Shown: one piece after another, positions 5,949 through 19,051 of the stretch | Position numbering within the stretch: position 1 is the first letter of the stretch | Layout: every line of letters begins with the position of its first letter | Assembly: GCA_937929895.1 (NCBI GenBank) | Contig: CALFUO010000199.1 | Span: 1 to 43,065, forward strand | Source: an uncultured Aquimarina sp. | GTDB taxonomy: Bacteria > Bacteroidota > Bacteroidia > Flavobacteriales > Flavobacteriaceae | Reading direction: 5' to 3' | DNA length: 43,065 nt | Program-made: the position numbers and the translations under genes | The notes under the pieces: model-generated | Database searches by the model: none | What the model saw: only the letters and a program-made list of their open reading frames with translations | Told to the model about the DNA's origin: nothing

Positions 5949-7304
5949 TTACTTTGCACTCTGTACAAACACAGAAAAATCCAATCCTCCATAATTCCCA
6001 CTACTCATTAATAGTAAAGCGGTATTCTCTAAAGATTCTGCATAAATAAATTTGTGAAAGTCTTCTGCTTTTGTGAACACCTTTAGGTCTTCTCTTTTAA
6101 AGGCTTCTTTTATTTGAGCTTCGCTCAATGGCTTCATTCCTTTTATTTCTAATGCTTCTGCACTATAGTAAACAACTGCTTCATTAGCCGCTTTTAAAGC
6201 CCCCTCATACTGCACTAAAAACTCTGGGGTCAGACTGCTATAAGTATGCAATTCTAAACAAGCTAATAGTCTTTTGTCTGTATATTGTTCTTTTACAGCT
6301 GCAGTTGTTGCTTTTACCTTACTAGGACTATGTGCGAAATCTTTAAACACTATCGCACTATTTGATTCTGAAATCTTTTCTAATCGTTTTGAAGCCCCTT
6401 TAAAAGAAGAAATTGCTTCGTAGAATTCATCTTCATCGATTCCCATATTCTGGCAAATCCATTTCGCTCCCGCAAGATTGTTCAGGTTATGCTTTCCAAA
6501 AATTTCGAGCGGCATATCTCCTTCTTCTGTTTCGAGATAGGCTACACCATCTTCAACTGTATAGTCTGGTGTTGTGTATGGAATTTTTCGAATCTGGTTT
6601 TCGGATGCTCCTACAATTTCCTTGACAACAGGATCTTCTTCATTATAAATTAAAATTCCCCCTGCTACTACCTGATCTATAAATATCTTGAATTGCTCGA
6701 CATAGTCTTCGAAAGTTTTGAAAACATTAATATGATCCCAAGCAATCCCACTCAACAACGCAATATTCGGTTGATACAAATGGAATTTAGGTCTTAGATC
6801 TATAGGTGAAGAAAGGTATTCATCTCCTTCAAGCACCATAAAATCGTTCTCTTCAGTAAGGTGCACCATGGTTTCGAAACCTTCTAATTGTGCCCCCACC
6901 ATGTAATCTACTTCTTTCTCGTGATAATGTAGTACATGCAAAATCATTGAAGTAATGGTAGTTTTACCATGTGAACCCCCAATTACTACTCGTGATTTTA
7001 ATTTACTCTGTTCGAATAAATACTCTGGGTACGAGTAAATTTTTACTCCTAACTCCTGTGCTTTTAACAATTCTGGATTATCTCCTTTGGCGTGCATTCC
7101 TAAAATTACAGCGTCTAAGTCTGAAGTAATTTTGTCCGCATCCCAACCAAACGTATTTGGTAACAAACCATATTTTTCTAAGCGAGATTTCGAAGGGTCG
7201 AAAATTGCATCGTCACTACCCGTTATTTGATATCCTTTTTTATGAAGAGCAATCGCTAAATTATGCATAGCACTCCCACCAATTGCAATAAAATGTACTT
7301 TCAT
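5949..7304 (-). CDS. mpl: Mur ligase, Mpl-like (UDP-MurNAc:tripeptide ligase)
   Basis: A 451-residue ATP-dependent ligase of the MurC/Mpl branch. The Rossmann start is AIGGSAMHNLA (about residues 7-17), then GSD at 29-31. The ATP loop is GGSHGKTT (109-116). The Mpl-type segment VLEGDEYLSSPIDLRPKF corresponds to the E. coli Mpl stretch around ADEYDCAFFDKRSKF, and DHINVF and HNLNNLAGA are the Mur ligase middle and C-terminal signatures. Mpl joins recycled L-Ala-D-Glu-meso-DAP to UDP-MurNAc in the cytoplasm. No other murein-synthesis gene is nearby, which fits recycling and not the main dcw cluster that holds murC. A MurC-like role is not excluded by sequence alone. A TAnnTTTG box lies only 5 bases ahead of the ATG. 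Confidence 0.85.
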   Translation of the reverse strand: MKVHFIAIGGSAMHNLAIALHKKGYQITGSDDAIFDPSKSRLEKYGLLPNTFGWDADKITSDLDAVILGMHAKGDNPELLKAQELGVKIYSYPEYLFEQSKLKSRVVIGGSHGKTTITSMILHVLHYHEKEVDYMVGAQLEGFETMVHLTEENDFMVLEGDEYLSSPIDLRPKFHLYQPNIALLSGIAWDHINVFKTFEDYVEQFKIFIDQVVAGGILIYNEEDPVVKEIVGASENQIRKIPYTTPDYTVEDGVAYLETEEGDMPLEIFGKHNLNNLAGAKWICQNMGIDEDEFYEAISSFKGASKRLEKISESNSAIVFKDFAHSPSKVKATTAAVKEQYTDKRLLACLELHTYSSLTPEFLVQYEGALKAANEAVVYYSAEALEIKGMKPLSEAQIKEAFKREDLKVFTKAEDFHKFIYAESLENTALLLMSSGNYGGLDFSVFVQSAK

Positions 7305-7343: not shown

Positions 7344-8009
7344 TTATTCGAAACTTATTACTCCTTCTACCATATGTATCCTAGTAATATCACTTCGCTT
7401 TAAATCGAAAGAAGGGTAATTGGTATTGTCGGCTCTGCAATTAACATATGCGGTATCACCATCCTTTGGAAATAAACGCCGAAGTAAAATACCTGATTTC
7501 GAACAAATAACAAAAGCTTTACCCCATATGATTTCGGCATCTTCGATAATCTTACAGATAAATAATGATCCGCCTTTATATCGAGGTAATAGACTATCGT
7601 CATTCAATCTAACTAGAAAATTACCTTTCTTAAATGAGAAATCAGGGATACTGTAATAAAGAAATTCGGAGGTATCATCGGTAAGTGTAAAATCCTTAAG
7701 CATGCTCTGAGGTACTAATGGTAATGCCTCTAAATTAGTCACCCCGCTAGTTCTATATTCTTCATTAGATTCTCTTATCCTTAGTTCTAAAAAATCATCT
7801 TCTAATAAAGGGTTTCCCTCCCCTGTAGCAACCCAATGAATATTTACAGGAAAAATTTCCGATATTTTTTCTACCCATTTACTTGAAATATGAGTGTTTT
7901 TAATAAGAGCTTTACGTAAAACACCTTGACTCATCCCCAATTTGCGTTCAAAGTCACTTTGCGTAATCCCTAATAATGCTGGTAATTGTCCTATTCGTTG
8001 TGTAATCAT
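7344..8009 (-). CDS. Repressor with N-terminal HTH and S24-like C-terminal domain
   Basis: A 221-residue transcription factor. Residues 1-65 form a phage-repressor type HTH (RIGQLPALLGITQSDFERKL, then LRKALIKNTHISSKWVEKI). Residues 120-200 match the LexA/S24 fold: FLVRLNDDSLLP with Ser139 in the nucleophile position, GGSLFICK, and WGKAFVI...ILLRRLF. The position where the self-cleaving Lys is expected reads Arg-Arg (177-178), and I see no Ala-Gly cleavage pair in the linker, so self-cleavage is doubtful; the domain may only dimerise or bind a ligand. It faces a 68-residue gene across 90 bases holding two palindromes, the usual layout of a repressor controlling itself and its partner. No phage genes are nearby. 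Confidence 0.8.
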   Translation of the reverse strand: MITQRIGQLPALLGITQSDFERKLGMSQGVLRKALIKNTHISSKWVEKISEIFPVNIHWVATGEGNPLLEDDFLELRIRESNEEYRTSGVTNLEALPLVPQSMLKDFTLTDDTSEFLYYSIPDFSFKKGNFLVRLNDDSLLPRYKGGSLFICKIIEDAEIIWGKAFVICSKSGILLRRLFPKDGDTAYVNCRADNTNYPSFDLKRSDITRIHMVEGVISFE

Positions 8010-9230: not shown

Positions 9231-12200
9231 ATGGCAAAGCAGTCTATAATTCTATCTATAATCTCATTTTTCCTATCATTTTTTATGACACAGGCGCAGC
9301 AAAATTTCGAAAAACAATGGTTAGAAATAGTCCAATTAGAAATTGATAGAAAAGTCACAACGGCGCTAGAAAAAGTAAATTTTGTCTACAAAAAAGCGCT
9401 TGCTAGCAAAAATGATACTCAGCGCCTTAAAGCATTATTATTTCGTTGGAAATTTCAACAAATCGTAGACGAAAAATCACAAGTAGTGATCCTAAAAAAT
9501 GTGGCTTACGAAATCGACCAAGCCGATGCTCCTTCAAAAAACATATTATATATGTATTTGGCTTCTTTCTTAGAAAGCTATTATAACGATAATTATTGGC
9601 GCATTAGCAAACGTACACCAACCGAAGATGCTGACCTAAAAGATTATCGCACTTGGGATGCTAAAACCTTCATCAAACAGATTTCTAATTTTTATGAAAA
9701 AGCATTAGAAAATAGCACCTCTTTAGCATCACAACCCATAGAAAAGTATACAGACTTATTGGTTACGGTTCCTATTTCTCGAAAACTGAAACCTACTTTG
9801 TTTGATCTTATTGCTCACAAAGCTTTGAATTTCTATAAGAATTCAAGAAATACGATTCAACCCAAAGAAGCCTTTATTATAGATAATGAAACCTATTTTG
9901 ACTTACCTGAGGCTTTTTACAGTCAAAACATTACTACTCCCGACGAGAATTCCTTTCCATATCAATCTTTAAAAATTTATCAAAATCTAGAAAGAGTCCA
10001 TAGTCAAAAGAATCATAAAGAAGCTTTAATTTTTACCGTTTCGGAACGTTTTCAATACGTAAAAAGTAATTGGAAAGGAGGGAATACAGACGAAGTTTAT
10101 TTCAACCATTTAAAAAAATTACAACAACAATTCCCAAACACGAGTATCGATATCAAATTGGCGGAAGCGTATCGTACACTTTCTTTTCAAAAGAATGAAG
10201 CAGGAAAGTATGTGTACCCAGACTATAATAATAAAGCGCTAGCGCTAATTTCTAATATCGAAAAGACGTCGAAAGATACTCGAATTCTAATCCCTGTTGA
10301 AAACCTAAAAAGCCAGATCTTACAAAAGAAACTCGAATGGCAAACGCAGTCTTTGTACTTACCTAACAAAAAGCACTTAGCCAAACTAACGTTTGCTAAT
10401 ACGGAAAAAGCTACTTTAAAAGCCTATAAAGTGGATTTTGAATTTGAGCCTAATGAACTGAAGCCTTACCTCGAAAAAGATTCAATACTAAGAAAATATC
10501 TAAAAAAGCAACAACTTCTGTTTACTAAAACCTATGAACTTCCTAAAAGAAAGGATCATAATAGTTATAGTACCGAGGTTATCGTCCCTAAATTACCTCT
10601 TGGTCATTATATCTTTACGTTAAAAGCCGATACTGAAGAAGAGAGCTGGAAATACCACGAACAAACAGTTACTGAAATCGGTTTGAACAAAACCTTACTA
10701 GGTAATAAAACTCGATATCAGATTGTCAATCGATATACTGGTGCTCCAATAGCAGGAACTGAAGTTACCGTTAAACACAAAATAGGCAACTACAGAAATT
10801 ACTCTTGGAAAACGAAACAAGAAACCACTGACCAAGAGGGATTCTTTTATGATTCAAATAGTGATAATAATGGGCATCAAATCATCGTCAAATTACCGCA
10901 GGACACCTTAAAAATATCAGATCGAAACTATCGTAGGAGGGGCGAAATAGATGATGCTAATCAAAACAAAAAGTATCAATCGAAAACTCTTTTATTTTTA
11001 GATCGCGCTATCTATAGACCTGGTCAAAAAGTATATTTTAAAGCCATAGCGATTCAAAAAGTTGATGAAATATCGAATTGCATTGCGGATACAAAAATCA
11101 AAATTGAAGTTAAAGATGTAAATCATCAACTAGTCCATACTCAAACTTTATCCACCAACGAATACGGATCTGTAAATGGAGACTTCGATTTACCTAAAAA
11201 TAGACTGACAGGTAATTTTCATATCTCGGCTTCTATAATTGAACCTAAAGATTCTCGTCGTAATCAAAATGCGAATACTAATTTTTCTGTAGAAGAATAC
11301 AAACGCCCCACATTCGAAGTGACTTTTGAACCTGCTACTGAAATTTTTAGATTAAATGATACTGTCGTGGTTAAAGGAAACGCTAAGGCTTTTTTTGGCG
11401 GAAATATTACCGATGCTAAAGTTAAGTATGTTGTAAAACGAACTGTAAAACCTATGTTTTGGTGGTGGAGAAGCTATCTGAATAATCAGAATGAGAAACA
11501 AATTACTACAGGTGAACTGACCACAGACGAAAATGGAAAATTCGAAATCAATTTTATAGCAGAGACTGGAACTCCAGAAATAGAAAACAAGATTTTCAAT
11601 TATGAAATCACAGCCAAAGTAACTGATGTAAATGGAGAAACACGCGAAGCTTCACAAACGATTAAAGTTGCAGATAAAAACTTACTTAGTAGTATTGACG
11701 TTTCTGAAACTCTACAAAGTAATGTTCTAACTGAAGTTAAAATTAAAACTACCGATGTCAATGATAATCCTATCAAAGCAAACGGAACTTTAACGGTTTA
11801 TAAACTAAAAGCTCCGAATCGATATCTAAATAATCGTCCTTGGGGAGTTCCGGATATTCAGGAAATCGATAAATCTACTTTCGAAAAGACGTTTACACAT
11901 ATACCTTACTCAGATGAAAAAGATCCTAAAAACTGGACAAAAGGAACATCGTTTTGTGAGCATACTTTTGAAAATACATCCGAAGCTATTATTGAATTAG
12001 ACAATATGAAGGATTGGCCAGCAGGGAAGTACTTATTAGTTACGAAGGTTAGTGACCCTATTACCAACACGACCACCGAAAATCAAAAGACGGTAACTTT
12101 AGAACACTCTAAACAAAAAATCCCGGCAGATAATCAAATACTGAATTTTAGCGTAGACTATAACGCTAAAAGTAAAAGTAGGGCTACAATTCACCTTAGT

Positions 12201-15200
12201 ACTTCGGTCGATACATTATACCCAATTGTAGAATTATACGATGGAAATCGTATAATTTACCACAAAGCCATTTCGTTACAAAAGGGTTCTAATTCTTTAA
12301 TTATTTCTTTACCTAAGTTGAATTATGATAAGGTAACAGCTAAAGTATTTTATCACCTTTTCAATACATTATACACCAAACAAGAAGTTTTAGATTATTC
12401 TAAAATTCCTGTAAATCTAGTCATTGAAAAACAACATTTTACAGACAAACTAACCCCTGGAGGAAAAGAGACTTGGAGTTTCAAATTAAAATCTTCTGAT
12501 GGCAACCGAGTTAACGCCGAAGGTTTAGCTAGTATGTACGATGCTTCTTTAGATCAGTTTAAAACACACACTTGGAATACGAATTTCGGATTTAAAGGCT
12601 ATACACCACCAGCTCCTAACACACAAGAATTAAATCGAATTTCCACCTCTAAAGTCTATTACAACCAGCAAATTGATCGTATCCCTTTACCTGAAATTAC
12701 CGTAGAGAAATTGAATTTGTATGGATTTACTTTTAACAGAATCAATTCTTGGGAGTATCGAGAATACTTGAATGATTTAAATTACTTGACTATTCTAGAA
12801 TCAATAAAAACTATAAAAGATTATGGTAAAAGTGGTAAAGCATATGGACAAATCATAGATGGTAGTGTGAATGAGCCTCTTCCTTTTGCTAACGTAAGTA
12901 TTTTCAACTCTAATAAAGTTACAACAACAGACTTTGAAGGAAATTTCTCTTTAGATGCAAAAGTAGGAGAACTTCTAGAAGTATCTTTTGTAGGTTACAA
13001 GACTGTTCTTTTCCCCATAGAAAAAGTAGATCGACCAATAATAATCACTCTTAATACAGGTGCATCTTCACTTAATAGTGTGATTATTTCTAGTGAATCA
13101 TCTAAACGCGTTTCAAAACAACGGATAGCTGCTAAATCCCTTTCTAGTAATATGTCCTTTTCTGATTGGGACAGTACAGAATACGAAACTGATGAAACTC
13201 CTGAAAAAGAAATTCCAAATATAAGTTCTAATAATCAAGACCTTTCATCCCTAAAAGCCATAAAAGCCCGAGAAAACCTAAACGAAACGGCTTTCTTTTT
13301 ACCCAACTTAAAAACCAACAAAAAAGGGGAAATAGAATTTGAGTTTACTTCTCCCGAGGCTTTAACCAAATGGAATCTACAGTTATTAGCCCATACCCAA
13401 AATGCCACTTGGGGAAAATTGGATGCAGAGGCTTTAACCCAAAAGGATTTAAACATTATCCCAAATGCGCCTCGTTTTTTACGAGAAGGAGATCAATTGT
13501 TATTTAGTGCTAAGATTTCGAATCTATCTGATAAAGTTTTAAATGGTACTGCCTTGCTAGAGTGGACAAATCCTATTGACGGAGCAGTAATTACGAAGCA
13601 ATTGAAACAAGCTAACGACACCCAAAACTTCACCATTGCCGCCAACGGAAATACAGAAGTGAGTTGGAAGATTGAAATCCCCGAAGGCTTGGGAGCTATT
13701 CAATATAAAATTGTGGCAAAAGCAGGTAATGCTACCGATGGGCAAACAGCTGCTATACCTGTTTTAACGAATAGGAAATTAGTAACCGAAAGTATTGCTA
13801 TGTGGGTACGCCCTGGAGAAACAGAAACCTATACCTTGAACAATTTTGACACGAATAGTACGACGCAAAAACCGCATCAAATTACGCTAGAGTATACTTC
13901 TAATCCTGCATGGATGGCGATTAAGTCGTTACCCTATTTAATTGAATTTCCACATGAGTGTAGTGAACAGACGTTTTCTAGAATGTATGCCAATAGTATT
14001 GCTTCACACATTATCAATTCGCACCCCAAAATCAAACAAGTATTCGAAAGTTGGGAAGCTAATGGGGTTTTAGAAAGTCCTTTAGAGAAGAATTTAGCAC
14101 TGAAAGAAGTATTGATTGCAGAAAGCCCATGGCTTCGTGACACGCAATCCGAAACAGAACAACAAAAACGCTTAGTGGAATTATTTGACATTCAAAAAAT
14201 GTCTCGTGCTAACGAACGTGCAATACAAAAACTTCAGCAACTTCAGAAAGCTAGTGGAGGTTTTCCTTGGTTTAGCGGTGGACGTGAAAACCCATTTATC
14301 ACTCGCCATATTGTTGCTGGATTTGGTCATTTAGAACGACTAGGAGTTATCGAACAACGTAAGAAAACGGACAACATCCTTCAAAAAGCAATTCAATATT
14401 TAGATCGAGAATTGGAAAATGAGTTTAATGAATTCAAAAATAGAACTCAAAAAGTCGATGATTTCTATAAGCGTATTTCTTTACTGCACTTCGCCTATGC
14501 CAGAAGCTATCATTTAGACCGTTTTCCTATAAAAGGATTAGCCAAAGATATCGTTGAAAAAGCATTAAGTTACCAAAATAAGAACTGGCAACAACGTTCA
14601 CTTTATCAAAAAGGATTATTGGCTTTAACCTTACACCGCTTCGAGACTTCTCCCAAAACAGTTTCTAAGATCATGACTGCCTTAGTAGAAACGGCAGTGC
14701 AATCGAAAGCGAATGGCATGTACTGGAAAGAAAACCAAGCGGGTTGGTACTGGTACCAGTCGATTATTTCTACACAGGCATTATTGATCGAAGCATTTAC
14801 AGAAACGAATCAACCACAGAAATATATTGAAGAACTAAAAGTTTTCTTATTAAAGAACAAACGTACGAATCGATGGGATAATACGATTAGTACAGCTAAT
14901 GCGTGTTATGCTTTATTATTAAGCGGTAATGATTGGCTATCCGTTAAAGATGGTGTAAAATTCAATTTACCTACGGGAAAAACGGGAACACTTTACAACA
15001 AAGTACAGACTGCGATATCGTCTAAAGAAGCTGGAAGTGGGTATTTTAAAACACAATGGAACGCTGATGAAATTGATGCTTCTTTTAAAACTATTGAAGT
15101 TAAAAATACAGGGAATGTAACAAACTATGGCGGGTATTATTGGCAATATTTTGAAGATTTAAATAAGATAAAAGTAGATGACCAAGGCCCTTTATCGATT

Positions 15201-15608
15201 GATAAAGAATTGTATTTAAAAGTGACTACAGATAATGGCACAGAACTGAAAAGAATCACTACAGTCACCCCACTACAACGTGGAGACAAAGTCACTGTTA
15301 GACTACTGATTAAAAGCGAAGATCATTTAGAATATGTACACTTAAAAGATATGCGTGCTAGTGGTTTCGAGCCTACAGAAGTGCTTTCTGGTTACAAATA
15401 CAAAGAAAACCTATGGTATTACCAAAGTACGAAAGATGTTGCCACACATTTCTTTATCGACCGTATGTCTAAAGGTAATTATGTATTGGAATACGATGTT
15501 ATAGCCAATCAAACAGGAGATTTCTCTAATGGTATTACAACACTACAATGTATGTATGCCCCTGAGTTTAGTAATCATTCTAGTGGACAACGTATAGAGA
15601 TTAAGTAA
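9231..15608 (+). CDS. Alpha-2-macroglobulin family protein with CSEQ thioester motif
   Basis: A 2125-residue exported protein with a signal peptide (residues 1-22, ending MTQAQ). The order is an N-terminal helical region, MG/MG2 domains (for example FLDRAIYRPGQKVYFKA, where RPGQ is the MG2 hallmark), a regulatory-type beta-sandwich insertion (about 1203-1290, PLPFANVSIFNS and VGYKT), the A2M core (NETAFFLPNL and FTSPEALTKWNLQ, near 1350), the thioester motif Cys1577-Ser-Glu-Gln1580, an alpha/alpha-toroid thioester domain, and a C-terminal receptor-like domain. Bacterial A2M proteins are thought to trap attacking proteases in the envelope; the intact CxEQ suggests covalent trapping. There is no lipobox, so it is periplasmic or secreted and not a lipoprotein. 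The insertion carries text like the start of SusC-type receptors, and sits where the protease bait region is expected. It is 153 bases from a divergent TPR gene and is followed by a repeat fragment. Confidence 0.92.
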   Translation: MAKQSIILSIISFFLSFFMTQAQQNFEKQWLEIVQLEIDRKVTTALEKVNFVYKKALASKNDTQRLKALLFRWKFQQIVDEKSQVVILKNVAYEIDQADAPSKNILYMYLASFLESYYNDNYWRISKRTPTEDADLKDYRTWDAKTFIKQISNFYEKALENSTSLASQPIEKYTDLLVTVPISRKLKPTLFDLIAHKALNFYKNSRNTIQPKEAFIIDNETYFDLPEAFYSQNITTPDENSFPYQSLKIYQNLERVHSQKNHKEALIFTVSERFQYVKSNWKGGNTDEVYFNHLKKLQQQFPNTSIDIKLAEAYRTLSFQKNEAGKYVYPDYNNKALALISNIEKTSKDTRILIPVENLKSQILQKKLEWQTQSLYLPNKKHLAKLTFANTEKATLKAYKVDFEFEPNELKPYLEKDSILRKYLKKQQLLFTKTYELPKRKDHNSYSTEVIVPKLPLGHYIFTLKADTEEESWKYHEQTVTEIGLNKTLLGNKTRYQIVNRYTGAPIAGTEVTVKHKIGNYRNYSWKTKQETTDQEGFFYDSNSDNNGHQIIVKLPQDTLKISDRNYRRRGEIDDANQNKKYQSKTLLFLDRAIYRPGQKVYFKAIAIQKVDEISNCIADTKIKIEVKDVNHQLVHTQTLSTNEYGSVNGDFDLPKNRLTGNFHISASIIEPKDSRRNQNANTNFSVEEYKRPTFEVTFEPATEIFRLNDTVVVKGNAKAFFGGNITDAKVKYVVKRTVKPMFWWWRSYLNNQNEKQITTGELTTDENGKFEINFIAETGTPEIENKIFNYEITAKVTDVNGETREASQTIKVADKNLLSSIDVSETLQSNVLTEVKIKTTDVNDNPIKANGTLTVYKLKAPNRYLNNRPWGVPDIQEIDKSTFEKTFTHIPYSDEKDPKNWTKGTSFCEHTFENTSEAIIELDNMKDWPAGKYLLVTKVSDPITNTTTENQKTVTLEHSKQKIPADNQILNFSVDYNAKSKSRATIHLSTSVDTLYPIVELYDGNRIIYHKAISLQKGSNSLIISLPKLNYDKVTAKVFYHLFNTLYTKQEVLDYSKIPVNLVIEKQHFTDKLTPGGKETWSFKLKSSDGNRVNAEGLASMYDASLDQFKTHTWNTNFGFKGYTPPAPNTQELNRISTSKVYYNQQIDRIPLPEITVEKLNLYGFTFNRINSWEYREYLNDLNYLTILESIKTIKDYGKSGKAYGQIIDGSVNEPLPFANVSIFNSNKVTTTDFEGNFSLDAKVGELLEVSFVGYKTVLFPIEKVDRPIIITLNTGASSLNSVIISSESSKRVSKQRIAAKSLSSNMSFSDWDSTEYETDETPEKEIPNISSNNQDLSSLKAIKARENLNETAFFLPNLKTNKKGEIEFEFTSPEALTKWNLQLLAHTQNATWGKLDAEALTQKDLNIIPNAPRFLREGDQLLFSAKISNLSDKVLNGTALLEWTNPIDGAVITKQLKQANDTQNFTIAANGNTEVSWKIEIPEGLGAIQYKIVAKAGNATDGQTAAIPVLTNRKLVTESIAMWVRPGETETYTLNNFDTNSTTQKPHQITLEYTSNPAWMAIKSLPYLIEFPHECSEQTFSRMYANSIASHIINSHPKIKQVFESWEANGVLESPLEKNLALKEVLIAESPWLRDTQSETEQQKRLVELFDIQKMSRANERAIQKLQQLQKASGGFPWFSGGRENPFITRHIVAGFGHLERLGVIEQRKKTDNILQKAIQYLDRELENEFNEFKNRTQKVDDFYKRISLLHFAYARSYHLDRFPIKGLAKDIVEKALSYQNKNWQQRSLYQKGLLALTLHRFETSPKTVSKIMTALVETAVQSKANGMYWKENQAGWYWYQSIISTQALLIEAFTETNQPQKYIEELKVFLLKNKRTNRWDNTISTANACYALLLSGNDWLSVKDGVKFNLPTGKTGTLYNKVQTAISSKEAGSGYFKTQWNADEIDASFKTIEVKNTGNVTNYGGYYWQYFEDLNKIKVDDQGPLSIDKELYLKVTTDNGTELKRITTVTPLQRGDKVTVRLLIKSEDHLEYVHLKDMRASGFEPTEVLSGYKYKENLWYYQSTKDVATHFFIDRMSKGNYVLEYDVIANQTGDFSNGITTLQCMYAPEFSNHSSGQRIEIK

Positions 15609-15914
15609 ATACAAATACCTACAGAAAGAGTTTTGAATTTACGGTATCATACACAAGCTATTAAAAGAAAACTCACTAACACAAGTATCCAAAAGTTTTA
15701 AGCTTTAGAAACAACAATTAACATTAAGTGTCTCATACGATCCTAAACCATAAAATGCAATATATATTAAGTTTATTTTTCTATTCTCTTTCAGTGAAAC
15801 GGTCTATATTCTAAAGTTTCGGATGCTAGTGACTCACTAACTAAAAATAAATTATAGTTTTTAGAATACTTATAGCATCTTTACCTTGTTAAAACTTTAA
15901 ACGTGTTACGGTGT
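15609..15914. other. 306-base intergenic region
   Basis: Between the alpha-2-macroglobulin and the TonB receptor. It contains the repeat fragment at 15735-15801 and otherwise AT-rich sequence. TACCTTG at about 15890 is one base short of a -7 box for the receptor gene. No small gene or terminator hairpin of note was seen. Confidence 0.5.
15735..15801. repeat. Left-end fragment of the 163-bp repeat, copy B
   Basis: ATACGATCCTAAACCATAAAATGCAA... follows the left half of copies A and C (with one extra C) through the TTAAGTTTA and TTTCTA stretch to about GTGAAACGG, then diverges. The right inverted end is missing, so this is a decayed copy. Confidence 0.65.
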
Positions 15915-18197
15915 ATGAAATTGAGAAAAGTAATAAAACTATTATTCCTAGGAATATGTATATACTTGCAAGTCTCAACTGTAAATGCGCAACAGAAAGT
16001 TACAGGGAAAGTACTAGATTCTTTTTCTAACCTCCCATTAGAAAATGTTTCTATTAAAATTAAAAACACAGAACAAGGAACATATTCTGATAAAAATGGG
16101 GTATTTGAATTCTCTAGTTTACCCACCAATACTTATTTAGTGTTTTCTATGATTGGTTATAAGACATTAGAAGTTACAATACAAAAAACAGATGCTACCA
16201 TTTTTTTAACTCCAAAAATCAATATAATTGATGAAGTGGTCTTACGAAGTTTTTCTAGTAGTCAACTAAAAAAGATAGCATCTGACCAAATTTACTTTTC
16301 TAAAGAGGATATTGAAAAACTCCCCTATATTCTAGGAGAAAAAGATGTTATTAAGTTAATACAATATACTCCTGGTGTACAGCAAGCTACAGAAGGACAG
16401 AGCGGCTTGTTAGTCCGAGGTGGAAATGGTAGTATGAATCTATCGCTACTCGATAATATCTATATCCATAATACCGCTCACTTGGGGGGTATATTTTCTG
16501 CAGTAAATGCAGACTTTGTAGAATCCTTAGAATTTTCTAAATCGAGTTTCGATGCTCAATTTGGGGGACGACTTTCTTCAATAACAGATATAAAATCTTT
16601 AAAAACGACTGATAGCACCACCTTTAAAGGAAGTATAGGCCTCCTCACTGCAAAAATTACTGGGAATATAAAGTTGAATAAAAAAAATAGCCTATTACTT
16701 TCGGGGAGAAGAACGTATTTAGAGGCTTTTAAGCCTTTTTTTAAAAACAGTAACTCTATTTTAGGTGCTAAAAAAAACTATTTCCTTTACGATTATTTCG
16801 GAAAACACAGCTTAGAACTTAACCCTAAAAATCGAATAGAGACTTCGGTGTATCTAACCAAAGATAACTTTACCGATAATACTAAAGGGCGTAATAGAAA
16901 ATTAAACTGGGGAAATTTACTTGTAGGAAGCACTTATTATCATGATTTTTCGAAACACTTAAAAAGTACTACATCTATCTCTAATAGTTTTTATAAACTA
17001 TCATTTAGTGACAATGACTTCCCTTTCGATTATGATGTCAAAAGCACTTTTAATAAATTCAATATTGATCATAATTTCGTCTGGAAACGAGATAACGGCT
17101 TAAAATTAAAAATAGGTGCTAATTATAGTTTTAATATTACATTACCCAAACGGGTTAAAGCAAGTATAAACGATTCTCCGATAGCATTTTCGAATCAAGA
17201 GACTTTTAAATATCATGAAATCAGTGGCTTCTCTGATTTAGAATTTACCGTAAGTAAACACATTAAAGCAAAAACAGGTATTCGCTTAACATCTTTTCAA
17301 ACTAAAGAAAATGCTCTTGTACCTTCCGAAAATTTTCTAGCAATAGAGCCAAGACTAAGTTTAAAATACATGTTGCAAAAAAGAGCTGCTTTCAAACTTA
17401 GCTATCAAAGATTAAACCAATTTATACACCAAGCTTCAGTTACAGGTTTAAGCCTGCCTATTGATTTTGTTGTAGTGAGTACTAATCAATTTAAACCCCA
17501 AATAGCAAATCAATATAGTATTGGATATAGTTATGAACCTCATGGATTTCAATTAAATAGCGCACTTTATTACAAGAGAGTTTCTAATTATACTGAATTC
17601 GTGAATGGTGCTGTAAATAACTTATTTAGAAATAATATATATGAGGATATTACTGTTGGCAAACTCAATTCTTACGGAGTGGAATTAAGTATACAGAAAA
17701 AAACTAAAAAAATAACTATCCAAAGTTCACTTACAATTTCTAGAACTATTGCACGGTTTAATGATATTAATCAAGGAAATTATTTTCCTGCAACCTTCGA
17801 CAGACCTGTTAATTTAAATACTATTCTTCAATATCAATTGAATAAACGTTGGGAAATAGGAGCTCTATTTCTTTTTACTAGTGGACAGAATTTTACAAAA
17901 CCCAAAGACATTCGAATCATTAATGAGGAAGCTATTATAAATTTTGAATCTAAAAATGCTTCTCGCTACCCTAATTATCATCGTTTAGATCTATCCTGTA
18001 CATATAATTTTAAACCAAAGAACAGATGGCAATCTAAATTGAATCTAACCATATACAATAGCTACAATAATAAAAATCCCTTTAATATTTACTACAAAAC
18101 AAACGGGGGGGCTAGCGACAACACTATAACTATTGAAGAAGTAAGAGAGAATCTCTTTCCTATACTACCAACATTAAACTGGATTTTCTCTTTTTAA
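15915..18197 (+). CDS. TonB-dependent outer-membrane receptor
   Basis: A 760-residue outer-membrane receptor that should import a ligand with TonB energy. The ATG at 15915 is chosen because it directly precedes the Lys/Arg-rich start of the signal peptide (MKLRKVIKLLFLGICIYLQV, cleavage after VNA); a GTG four codons earlier is less likely. After the signal come a carboxypeptidase-D regulatory-like domain (VTGKVLDSFSNLPLENVSI, ending MIGYKTLEV), the plug domain (GVQQATEGQSGLLVRGGNG, LLDNIYI, FGGRLSS), and a beta-barrel ending WIFSF with a terminal aromatic residue, the outer-membrane insertion signal. It forms a pair with the DUF4249 lipoprotein 11 bases downstream, a common Bacteroidota arrangement. 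Substrate unknown. Confidence 0.93.
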   Translation: MKLRKVIKLLFLGICIYLQVSTVNAQQKVTGKVLDSFSNLPLENVSIKIKNTEQGTYSDKNGVFEFSSLPTNTYLVFSMIGYKTLEVTIQKTDATIFLTPKINIIDEVVLRSFSSSQLKKIASDQIYFSKEDIEKLPYILGEKDVIKLIQYTPGVQQATEGQSGLLVRGGNGSMNLSLLDNIYIHNTAHLGGIFSAVNADFVESLEFSKSSFDAQFGGRLSSITDIKSLKTTDSTTFKGSIGLLTAKITGNIKLNKKNSLLLSGRRTYLEAFKPFFKNSNSILGAKKNYFLYDYFGKHSLELNPKNRIETSVYLTKDNFTDNTKGRNRKLNWGNLLVGSTYYHDFSKHLKSTTSISNSFYKLSFSDNDFPFDYDVKSTFNKFNIDHNFVWKRDNGLKLKIGANYSFNITLPKRVKASINDSPIAFSNQETFKYHEISGFSDLEFTVSKHIKAKTGIRLTSFQTKENALVPSENFLAIEPRLSLKYMLQKRAAFKLSYQRLNQFIHQASVTGLSLPIDFVVVSTNQFKPQIANQYSIGYSYEPHGFQLNSALYYKRVSNYTEFVNGAVNNLFRNNIYEDITVGKLNSYGVELSIQKKTKKITIQSSLTISRTIARFNDINQGNYFPATFDRPVNLNTILQYQLNKRWEIGALFLFTSGQNFTKPKDIRIINEEAIINFESKNASRYPNYHRLDLSCTYNFKPKNRWQSKLNLTIYNSYNNKNPFNIYYKTNGGASDNTITIEEVRENLFPILPTLNWIFSF

Positions 18198-18208
18198 AAC
18201 TTAACACT

Positions 18209-19051
18209 ATGAAGAAAATAGCACTACTTATCGTAATTGTTTTAACTAGCTGTGCTATTGAAGATACGATAGCTCGTAAAGATGACCCGCTAAGTATAGA
18301 GGCAAATATAAAAGAAGGGAAATTCGCAGAAGTAAGACTTACAAACAGTATTAATTTCTCTGGAATAATAGATTCGCTTGAAATAGCGAAAAGTGTTGAA
18401 TCCAAAGCAAAAGTTAGCATTTCGGATGGGACAAACTCCGAAATATTAACTTTAAAAAAAGACGAAAACAGATTTCCTTTTTTCTTTTACCAAGGAACGG
18501 TAATTAAAGGGGAGATTGGTAAGTTATATAACCTATCGATTACTATTAATAATAATACATATCATTCTACAACCAGTATCCCTAATCAACCCGAAATTAT
18601 AAATATTGATTTTGTTACAGCTAACGAAGAAGGAAATCCTACACCTGATTTTAAAGACATTATATTAACTATAAAAAACGATATTAACACCACGAACTAC
18701 TTCAAAATACTGATAAAAAATGAAAACGACTCAAAATTTAGGGATGCTACCCCTTTTCTATTTAACACAGAAAACATAAACACAGCTGAATTTCCAATAG
18801 TAGTTTCTTACAGTAAATTCGAAAATGACACAAAGATCAACTTACTAGAAACAAATGCTACTTTCGAACTTCAACTTATCCAAATAACAAAAGAGCAATT
18901 CTCTTTTTGGAAGTCTATTAAAGATGATGAAACTATATTATTAAGTGGAGCTTCTCTAACAAACGAAGTAAATTCTAACATAAGTAATAATGCGTTTGGT
19001 TATTGGTCTGGTGAAAATCCTACTGCTATCAAATTTATTGTGCCCGAATAA
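18209..19051 (+). CDS. DUF4249 lipoprotein, partner of the TonB receptor
   Basis: A 280-residue lipoprotein with lipobox LTSC (Cys15, MKKIALLIVIVLTSC). The body fits DUF4249: FAEVRLTNSINFSG, then KAKVSISDGTNSEIL, and a conserved turn where a small domain gives GEIGKLYNLSI and TYHSTTSIPNQP. The C-terminus ends in YWSGENPTAIKFIVPE. Members are usually encoded immediately after a TonB-dependent receptor and are assumed to be surface-side partners. Here the gap is 11 bases, so one transcript is expected. The ligand is not known. The transcript probably ends at the strong hairpin at 19284-19318. Confidence 0.88.
   Translation: MKKIALLIVIVLTSCAIEDTIARKDDPLSIEANIKEGKFAEVRLTNSINFSGIIDSLEIAKSVESKAKVSISDGTNSEILTLKKDENRFPFFFYQGTVIKGEIGKLYNLSITINNNTYHSTTSIPNQPEIINIDFVTANEEGNPTPDFKDIILTIKNDINTTNYFKILIKNENDSKFRDATPFLFNTENINTAEFPIVVSYSKFENDTKINLLETNATFELQLIQITKEQFSFWKSIKDDETILLSGASLTNEVNSNISNNAFGYWSGENPTAIKFIVPE

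Follow-up and report, generated by a model that had tools for sequence, protein, structure and literature searches.

What is a folded domain doing in the bait of an alpha-2-macroglobulin (A2M), at the place where a target protease is expected to cut? This question is raised by a 43,065-nucleotide stretch of DNA from an uncultured Aquimarina sp. (contig CALFUO010000199.1, positions 1 to 43,065; hereafter the window), which belongs to a 2.68-Mb assembly of 245 contigs that is 81% complete. A sequence-only reading of the window had proposed that positions 12840-13290 encode a regulatory-type beta-sandwich like the one that opens SusC-type receptors, located at the bait position of an A2M-family protein.

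The window encodes a thioester A2M

The open reading frame at 9231-15608 encodes a thioester A2M of an Aquimarina-type bacterium (Table 1). The domains of a type I bacterial A2M (MG2, A2M and bMG10) all score above the Pfam cut-offs, and alignment sets Cys1577 of the CSEQ motif opposite Cys1187 of ECAM, the E. coli protein, as expected for a CxEQ thioester. ECAM and SaA2M, the type I proteins of E. coli and Salmonella, share these domains and the CxEQ thioester, and their bait, like that of the window protein, interrupts an MG domain and splits it into two halves (PMC4498604). In contrast, their bait is a short disordered stretch, whereas that of the window protein extends over about 240 residues and contains a folded NTE of the type found in TonB-dependent transporters (TBDTs). 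ECAM, though not every A2M, is a lipoprotein anchored in the inner membrane, while the N-terminus of the window A2M has no lipobox and looks by eye like an ordinary signal peptide; a pattern scan found a lipobox in 2 of 159 A2Ms. The missing lipobox weakens only the case for an ECAM-like inner-membrane anchoring.

The neighbourhood also differs. The 3' neighbour of the A2M gene is pbpC in E. coli and, in the window, a TBDT gene (15903-18197; PF13715, Plug and barrel), followed by a DUF4249 gene (18209-19051). A TBDT-DUF4249 pair has been reported in BT2172-BT2173 (PMC11003636). We rejected a conserved A2M-TBDT-DUF4249 operon, since in none of the related loci compared did the downstream TBDT and DUF4249 genes have a counterpart above 40% identity. 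On the other side lie a Mur ligase gene (5949-7304, minus strand), whose orthologue is near or beside the A2M gene in most Flavobacteriaceae loci compared, and an ORF (7344-8009, minus strand) whose HTH and peptidase S24-like matches are weak, possibly a phage-repressor-type regulator. The window genome (G000) has a second A2M-domain ORF of 1758 aa (L002; contig C237:17406-17642), apparently of a different subfamily.

Table 1. Coordinates of the features of the window A2M, and proteins of another family with the same cassette.
Feature	Residues	Position	Strand	Basis
A2M-family protein, 2125 aa, signal-peptide-like N-terminal segment, no lipobox		9231..15608	+	ORF; Pfam MG2/A2M/bMG10; lipobox scan
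MG2 domain	587-687	10989..11291	+	Pfam PF01835, E 6.1e-18
Bait-bearing MG domain, first half	~1063-1109	12417..12557	+	AF2 strands; ECAM alignment
N-terminal bait linker, predicted disordered	~1121-1170	12591..12740	+	pLDDT <50
Lead-in helix	~1174-1192	12750..12806	+	AF2 helix 220-238 of fragment
NTE / CarboxypepD_reg_2 beta-sandwich, SusC-type	1203-1285	12837..13085	+	Pfam; AF2; PDB 9hfj_A; TBDTN HMM
Degenerate Ton-box position, LNSVIISSES	1281-1290	13071..13100	+	TBDTN HMM register (5-100); PSSM 9.1
Ser/Glu/Asp-rich bait linker	~1286-1345	13086..13265	+	pLDDT <50 for ~1280-1332; relatives with plug
A2M domain 3' of bait, from NETAFF	1353-1438	13287..13544	+	Pfam PF00207, E 1.7e-13; Xenopus A2M alignment
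Thioester motif CSEQ	1577-1580	13959..13970	+	Alignment with ECAM CLEQ 1187
bMG10 C-terminal domain	1988-2112	15192..15566	+	Pfam PF17973, E 2.5e-28
MuiA-type proteins with cassette		L116:766-2646 (-), L268-L275		NTE-Ton box-plug at internal site

A trimmed transporter cassette occupies the bait loop

The proposed beta-sandwich is real. Positions 12840-13290 correspond to residues 1204-1353 of the 2125-aa ORF, and four analyses agree on a SusC-type regulatory (NTE) domain: Pfam CarbopepD_reg_2 (PF13715) matches residues 1206-1285 above its cut-off (E 2.1e-12), an HMM of TBDT N-termini (TBDTN) matches the domain with E 2e-20, phmmer against the PDB pairs residues 1204-1262 with 9hfj_A, a 'SusC homolog' (E 3.5e-5), and AlphaFold2 folds residues ~1205-1274 into a beta-sandwich with pLDDT 94-97. 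The AlphaFold2 run used 65 sequences and covered residues 955-1520, and its mean pLDDT was 77.8; such alignments are small, and at its pTM of 0.46 the placement of domains relative to each other is unreliable.

The bait position was borne out as well. Residues 1110-1347 align opposite ECAM ~910-970, where the segment reported to be cleaved is 947-963 (PMC4498604), and RENLNETAFF, which follows the insert, aligns with RKNFSETF of Xenopus A2M. In the AlphaFold2 model, pLDDT falls below 50 at ~1121-1170 and ~1280-1332, and the two MG-domain halves flank these stretches. The NTE thus lies inside the loop that corresponds to the ECAM bait, with a free, predicted-disordered linker on each side; the second includes the flexible Ser/Glu-rich linker described earlier, after which the A2M core (PF00207) begins at NETAFF. 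Position and predicted disorder are compatible with a putative protease-cleavable bait that would trigger the thioester. Foldseek with multi-domain fragments returned only A2M/complement matches, C3 and C5 among them; flexibility between domains kept the TM-scores low, and the search did not place the NTE. Complement C3 and C5 belong to the A2M superfamily and likewise carry an extra folded domain, the anaphylatoxin domain, in the MG6/bait region; in contrast, the window insert is an unrelated beta-sandwich of transporter origin, of a kind that is exchanged between species.

SusC/RagA transporters such as BT1763 have the NTE (PF13715) in common with the window protein, and their Ton box (DEVVVTG in BT1763) and plug recur in relatives of the window A2M in the same order and register (PMC7782687). 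Unlike in the transporters, the cassette lies within an A2M and has no beta-barrel. A TBDT is recognised by a Ton box after the NTE, a plug and a 22-strand barrel; many relatives have the Ton box and some the plug, while Pfam finds neither Plug nor barrel in the window protein, and an acidic linker (~1286-1345) stands where relatives carry the plug. Its Ton-box stub scores 9.1 against the Ton-box matrix, versus 20-28 for clear Ton boxes, and is only the third-best match in the protein, that is, not above the protein's own background. In the window protein the cassette is cut down to the folded NTE bead, followed by the stub of a degenerate Ton box and the acidic linker.

Relatives carry transporter segments at the same site

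We collected 159 A2Ms, including that of the window, by similarity to the window protein as single query, from a genus set, a phylum sample and named genomes, and searched them with a profile built from 29 TBDT N-termini. Modules were found in the bait of 61 of the 159; outside baits, there was a single weak match (E 0.004). This one position holds either the NTE, Ton box and plug (about the first 210 SusC residues), fragments of these, or nothing. Complete inserts occur in L037, L041, L057, L068, L082, L201 and others, and in two such cases NCBIfam assigns the insert to SusC/RagA residues ~2-217 of 981, with the barrel absent. Partial inserts consist of the NTE with a Ton-box stub, the plug end only or, in the window, the NTE alone. 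Pfam detected the NTE in 20 and the plug in 11 of 65 bait regions, and no barrel or other common inserted domain in these 65. The insertion site is constant across relatives. The phylum sample (n=60) is the set with the least bias; of its A2Ms, 19 have a module, 8 a clear Ton box without a module and 33 neither.

The earlier account holds for the NTE, its bait position and the linker, and its suggestion that the domain could alter bait specificity or bind a partner may apply; it missed the larger TBDT N-terminal cassette seen in relatives. It also overlooked that the cassette varies and is replaced in situ, and that the Ton box is kept more often than any other part.

Three genomes (G009, G006 and G014) have two A2M paralogues within ~35 kb (L036/L037, L038/L039 and L040/L041), and in each pair one bait is plain while the other holds the complete NTE-Ton box-plug cassette. 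Near some A2M genes, proteins that are not recognised TBDTs start with an NTE and a Ton-box-like string such as LEEVVVT or LNEVVF (L037:14487-16088, L182:6768-7916, L219:14487-15656).

The cassette is exchanged between close relatives

Bait identity averages 34% where the core is 80-90% identical, and four pairs with conserved neighbours have differing baits. In a Tenacibaculum pair with 87% core identity, one bait has NTE, Ton box and plug (L147, 283 aa) and the other comprises 132 aa (L185). Two loci of the window's genus, L033 and L034, have modules that are 33% identical with a dS of 1.7, a value inflated by alignment uncertainty at this identity; outside the module, their genes are 86-93% identical and dS is 0.5-0.6. 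Their third-codon identity drops from 80-93% to ~40% near residues 1185-1360 and then recovers, which argues for replacement of the cassette rather than drift. Accordingly, comparison of syntenic loci indicates that the cassette has been replaced between sister species. Between close pairs, dN/dS within the module is ~0.2.

In a tree built from 71 modules, those of A2Ms fall among those of TBDTs, with 8 changes (bootstrap 7-9). A single origin of all A2M modules appeared in 0% of bootstrap trees, and the AU test (p 0.054) gave no formal rejection. The module of L037 shares 51% identity with a TBDT encoded in the same genome, against 42-47% with the modules of A2Ms from other lineages; the module of the window is nearest to that of the A2M of G022, of the same genus (46%), and then to TBDTs (37-39%).

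The Ton box is enriched in short baits

Next, we turned to the 98 A2Ms whose baits have no domain match, using a Ton-box matrix derived from 17 TBDTs. Ton-box-like sequence at p<=0.01 was present in 30 of these short baits, with 1 expected. Two plug motifs were also enriched (10 each), while two NTE motifs and the plug-end motif were not. A scan with the whole 200-column profile showed three peaks and no others: the Ton box (34 of 98, and 17 of 65 once similar baits were removed; reversed-PSSM control 4), GRAAGV (10; control 1) and IRG (12; control 3). At a score of at least 17, Ton boxes occurred in 20 of the 98 short baits, versus 0 in the rest of the A2Ms and 0 in 1005 neighbouring proteins (399,742 aa). 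Shuffles, the reversed PSSM and these neighbouring proteins ruled out chance matches; bait counts are not independent events, because baits share descent. Several baits have a plug motif before the Ton box, opposite to the transporter order. These counts indicate that the Ton box is selectively present in baits that have no other part of the cassette. Where the cassette is full-length, disorder is predicted for the Ton box and the segment that follows it (L201, fragment 324-397).

In some A2Ms another residue stands in place of the thioester Cys (HESAEQ), or the whole motif is gone (L058, L059, L211; L047, L048, L095-L097, L099, L165). The bait of most of these has kept a clear Ton box; among the Chryseobacterium-type A2Ms that have no thioester motif, 5 of 7 keep it.

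MuiA-type proteins carry the same cassette

The NTE-Ton box-plug cassette is also internal, at one site, in MuiA-type proteins (TIGR02231/DUF4139) of Flavobacteriaceae, which unlike the window A2M are an unrelated host protein with neither bait nor thioester. The cassette or parts of it occur in 8 of the 8 found in the family sample: it is complete in L269 and L275, reduced to the plug in L272 and weakest in L270, where only a Ton-box-like string (E 0.001) is present.

Discussion

The anatomy and exchange of the cassette are well supported; its function we infer. Our leading, still tentative, explanation is that A2M baits carry an exchangeable mimic of the TBDT N-terminus, most likely as a handle for docking to TonB or TBDTs. 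The loop would still act as a bait, so that a cut in its disordered flanks would spring the thioester trap. The cassette would show TBDT N-terminal surfaces to the periplasm and so dock the trap to the TonB/TBDT machinery, keeping it where TonB-driven import admits foreign proteins; exchange of the cassette would alter the partner or the bait. The contact would be the Ton box where present and perhaps the NTE alone in the window protein, where only the NTE could dock because the protein's own Ton box is degenerate; contact with TonB through that Ton box is not supported, its score being at background. In BT1763 the Ton box is experimentally needed for uptake, and the NTE has no known function, yet its deletion is strongly deleterious, and the authors suggest a role in TonB specificity (PMC7782687). 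We place docking first for three reasons: where the rest of the cassette is gone, the Ton box is what most often persists; most Chryseobacterium-type A2Ms without a thioester motif still have it; and the cassette or its parts also occur in MuiA-type proteins, which are not known to be traps. Against docking, about half of the phylum-sample A2Ms (33 of 60) have neither module nor Ton box, some baits retain the plug end only, and GRAAGV and IRG, also kept in baits, are not TonB-binding elements.

Close behind, though on balance improbable, we rank an integrated decoy, whose bait would copy the exposed, flexible N-terminus of abundant TBDTs so that a putative periplasmic protease that cuts TBDTs also cuts the bait and is trapped. 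The cassette lies exactly at the bait, and what short baits keep is the predicted-disordered Ton box and following stretch, or its edge, and not the folded parts. The bait also diverges much faster than the core, and replacement of the cassette between sister species would fit a changing target. The same cassettes in MuiA-type proteins, which are not known traps, speak against a decoy, as does the Ton box retained in A2Ms without a thioester, although the thioester-less MagD still traps (PMC5764988).

Third and somewhat less probable again, the bait loop may simply tolerate insertions, with recombination writing and eroding TBDT N-terminal DNA without specific function. Donors are abundant (22-62 matching TBDT loci per genome), and the interleaved tree with its 8 changes, the one module that, orthologues aside, has its closest relative in a TBDT of its own genome, the replacement at syntenic loci and the cassettes in MuiA are all consistent with such near-neutral capture. 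However, the recognisable pieces come from the NTE-plug part only, with no barrel or other common domain in the 65 bait regions; short baits retain the Ton box and not its equally conserved neighbouring motifs; and the low dN/dS in close pairs indicates purifying selection on the modules. Finally, it is very improbable that the NTE bead is a steric gate that only limits which proteases reach the flanking cleavable linkers, with no specific partner, since a folded bead between two disordered linkers would fit, as would the folded anaphylatoxin domain in the corresponding region of complement C3, but a gate leaves the Ton-box and plug motifs of short baits and the always-TBDT donor unexplained.

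Returning to docking, a far-reaching extension, which we regard as a long shot, is that in Bacteroidota SusC-type NTE/Ton-box/plug cassettes form a general exchangeable adaptor linking envelope proteins other than transporters to energised TonB; TonB would hold or mechanically load the A2M bait, and proton motive force would set or move the trap.

A search of the open PMC subset turned up no description of A2M baits that contain TBDT segments, an absence that does not prove novelty. The bait decides what an A2M catches, and here it is built from the front end of a nutrient transporter and swapped between close relatives. Our observations bear on the role of the SusC NTE, since NTE, Ton box and plug occur outside transporters, in A2M and MuiA-type proteins. 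A transporter-derived bait would link a protease trap to TonB-dependent import, and suggests that the trap imitates the machinery of nutrient uptake or docks to it.
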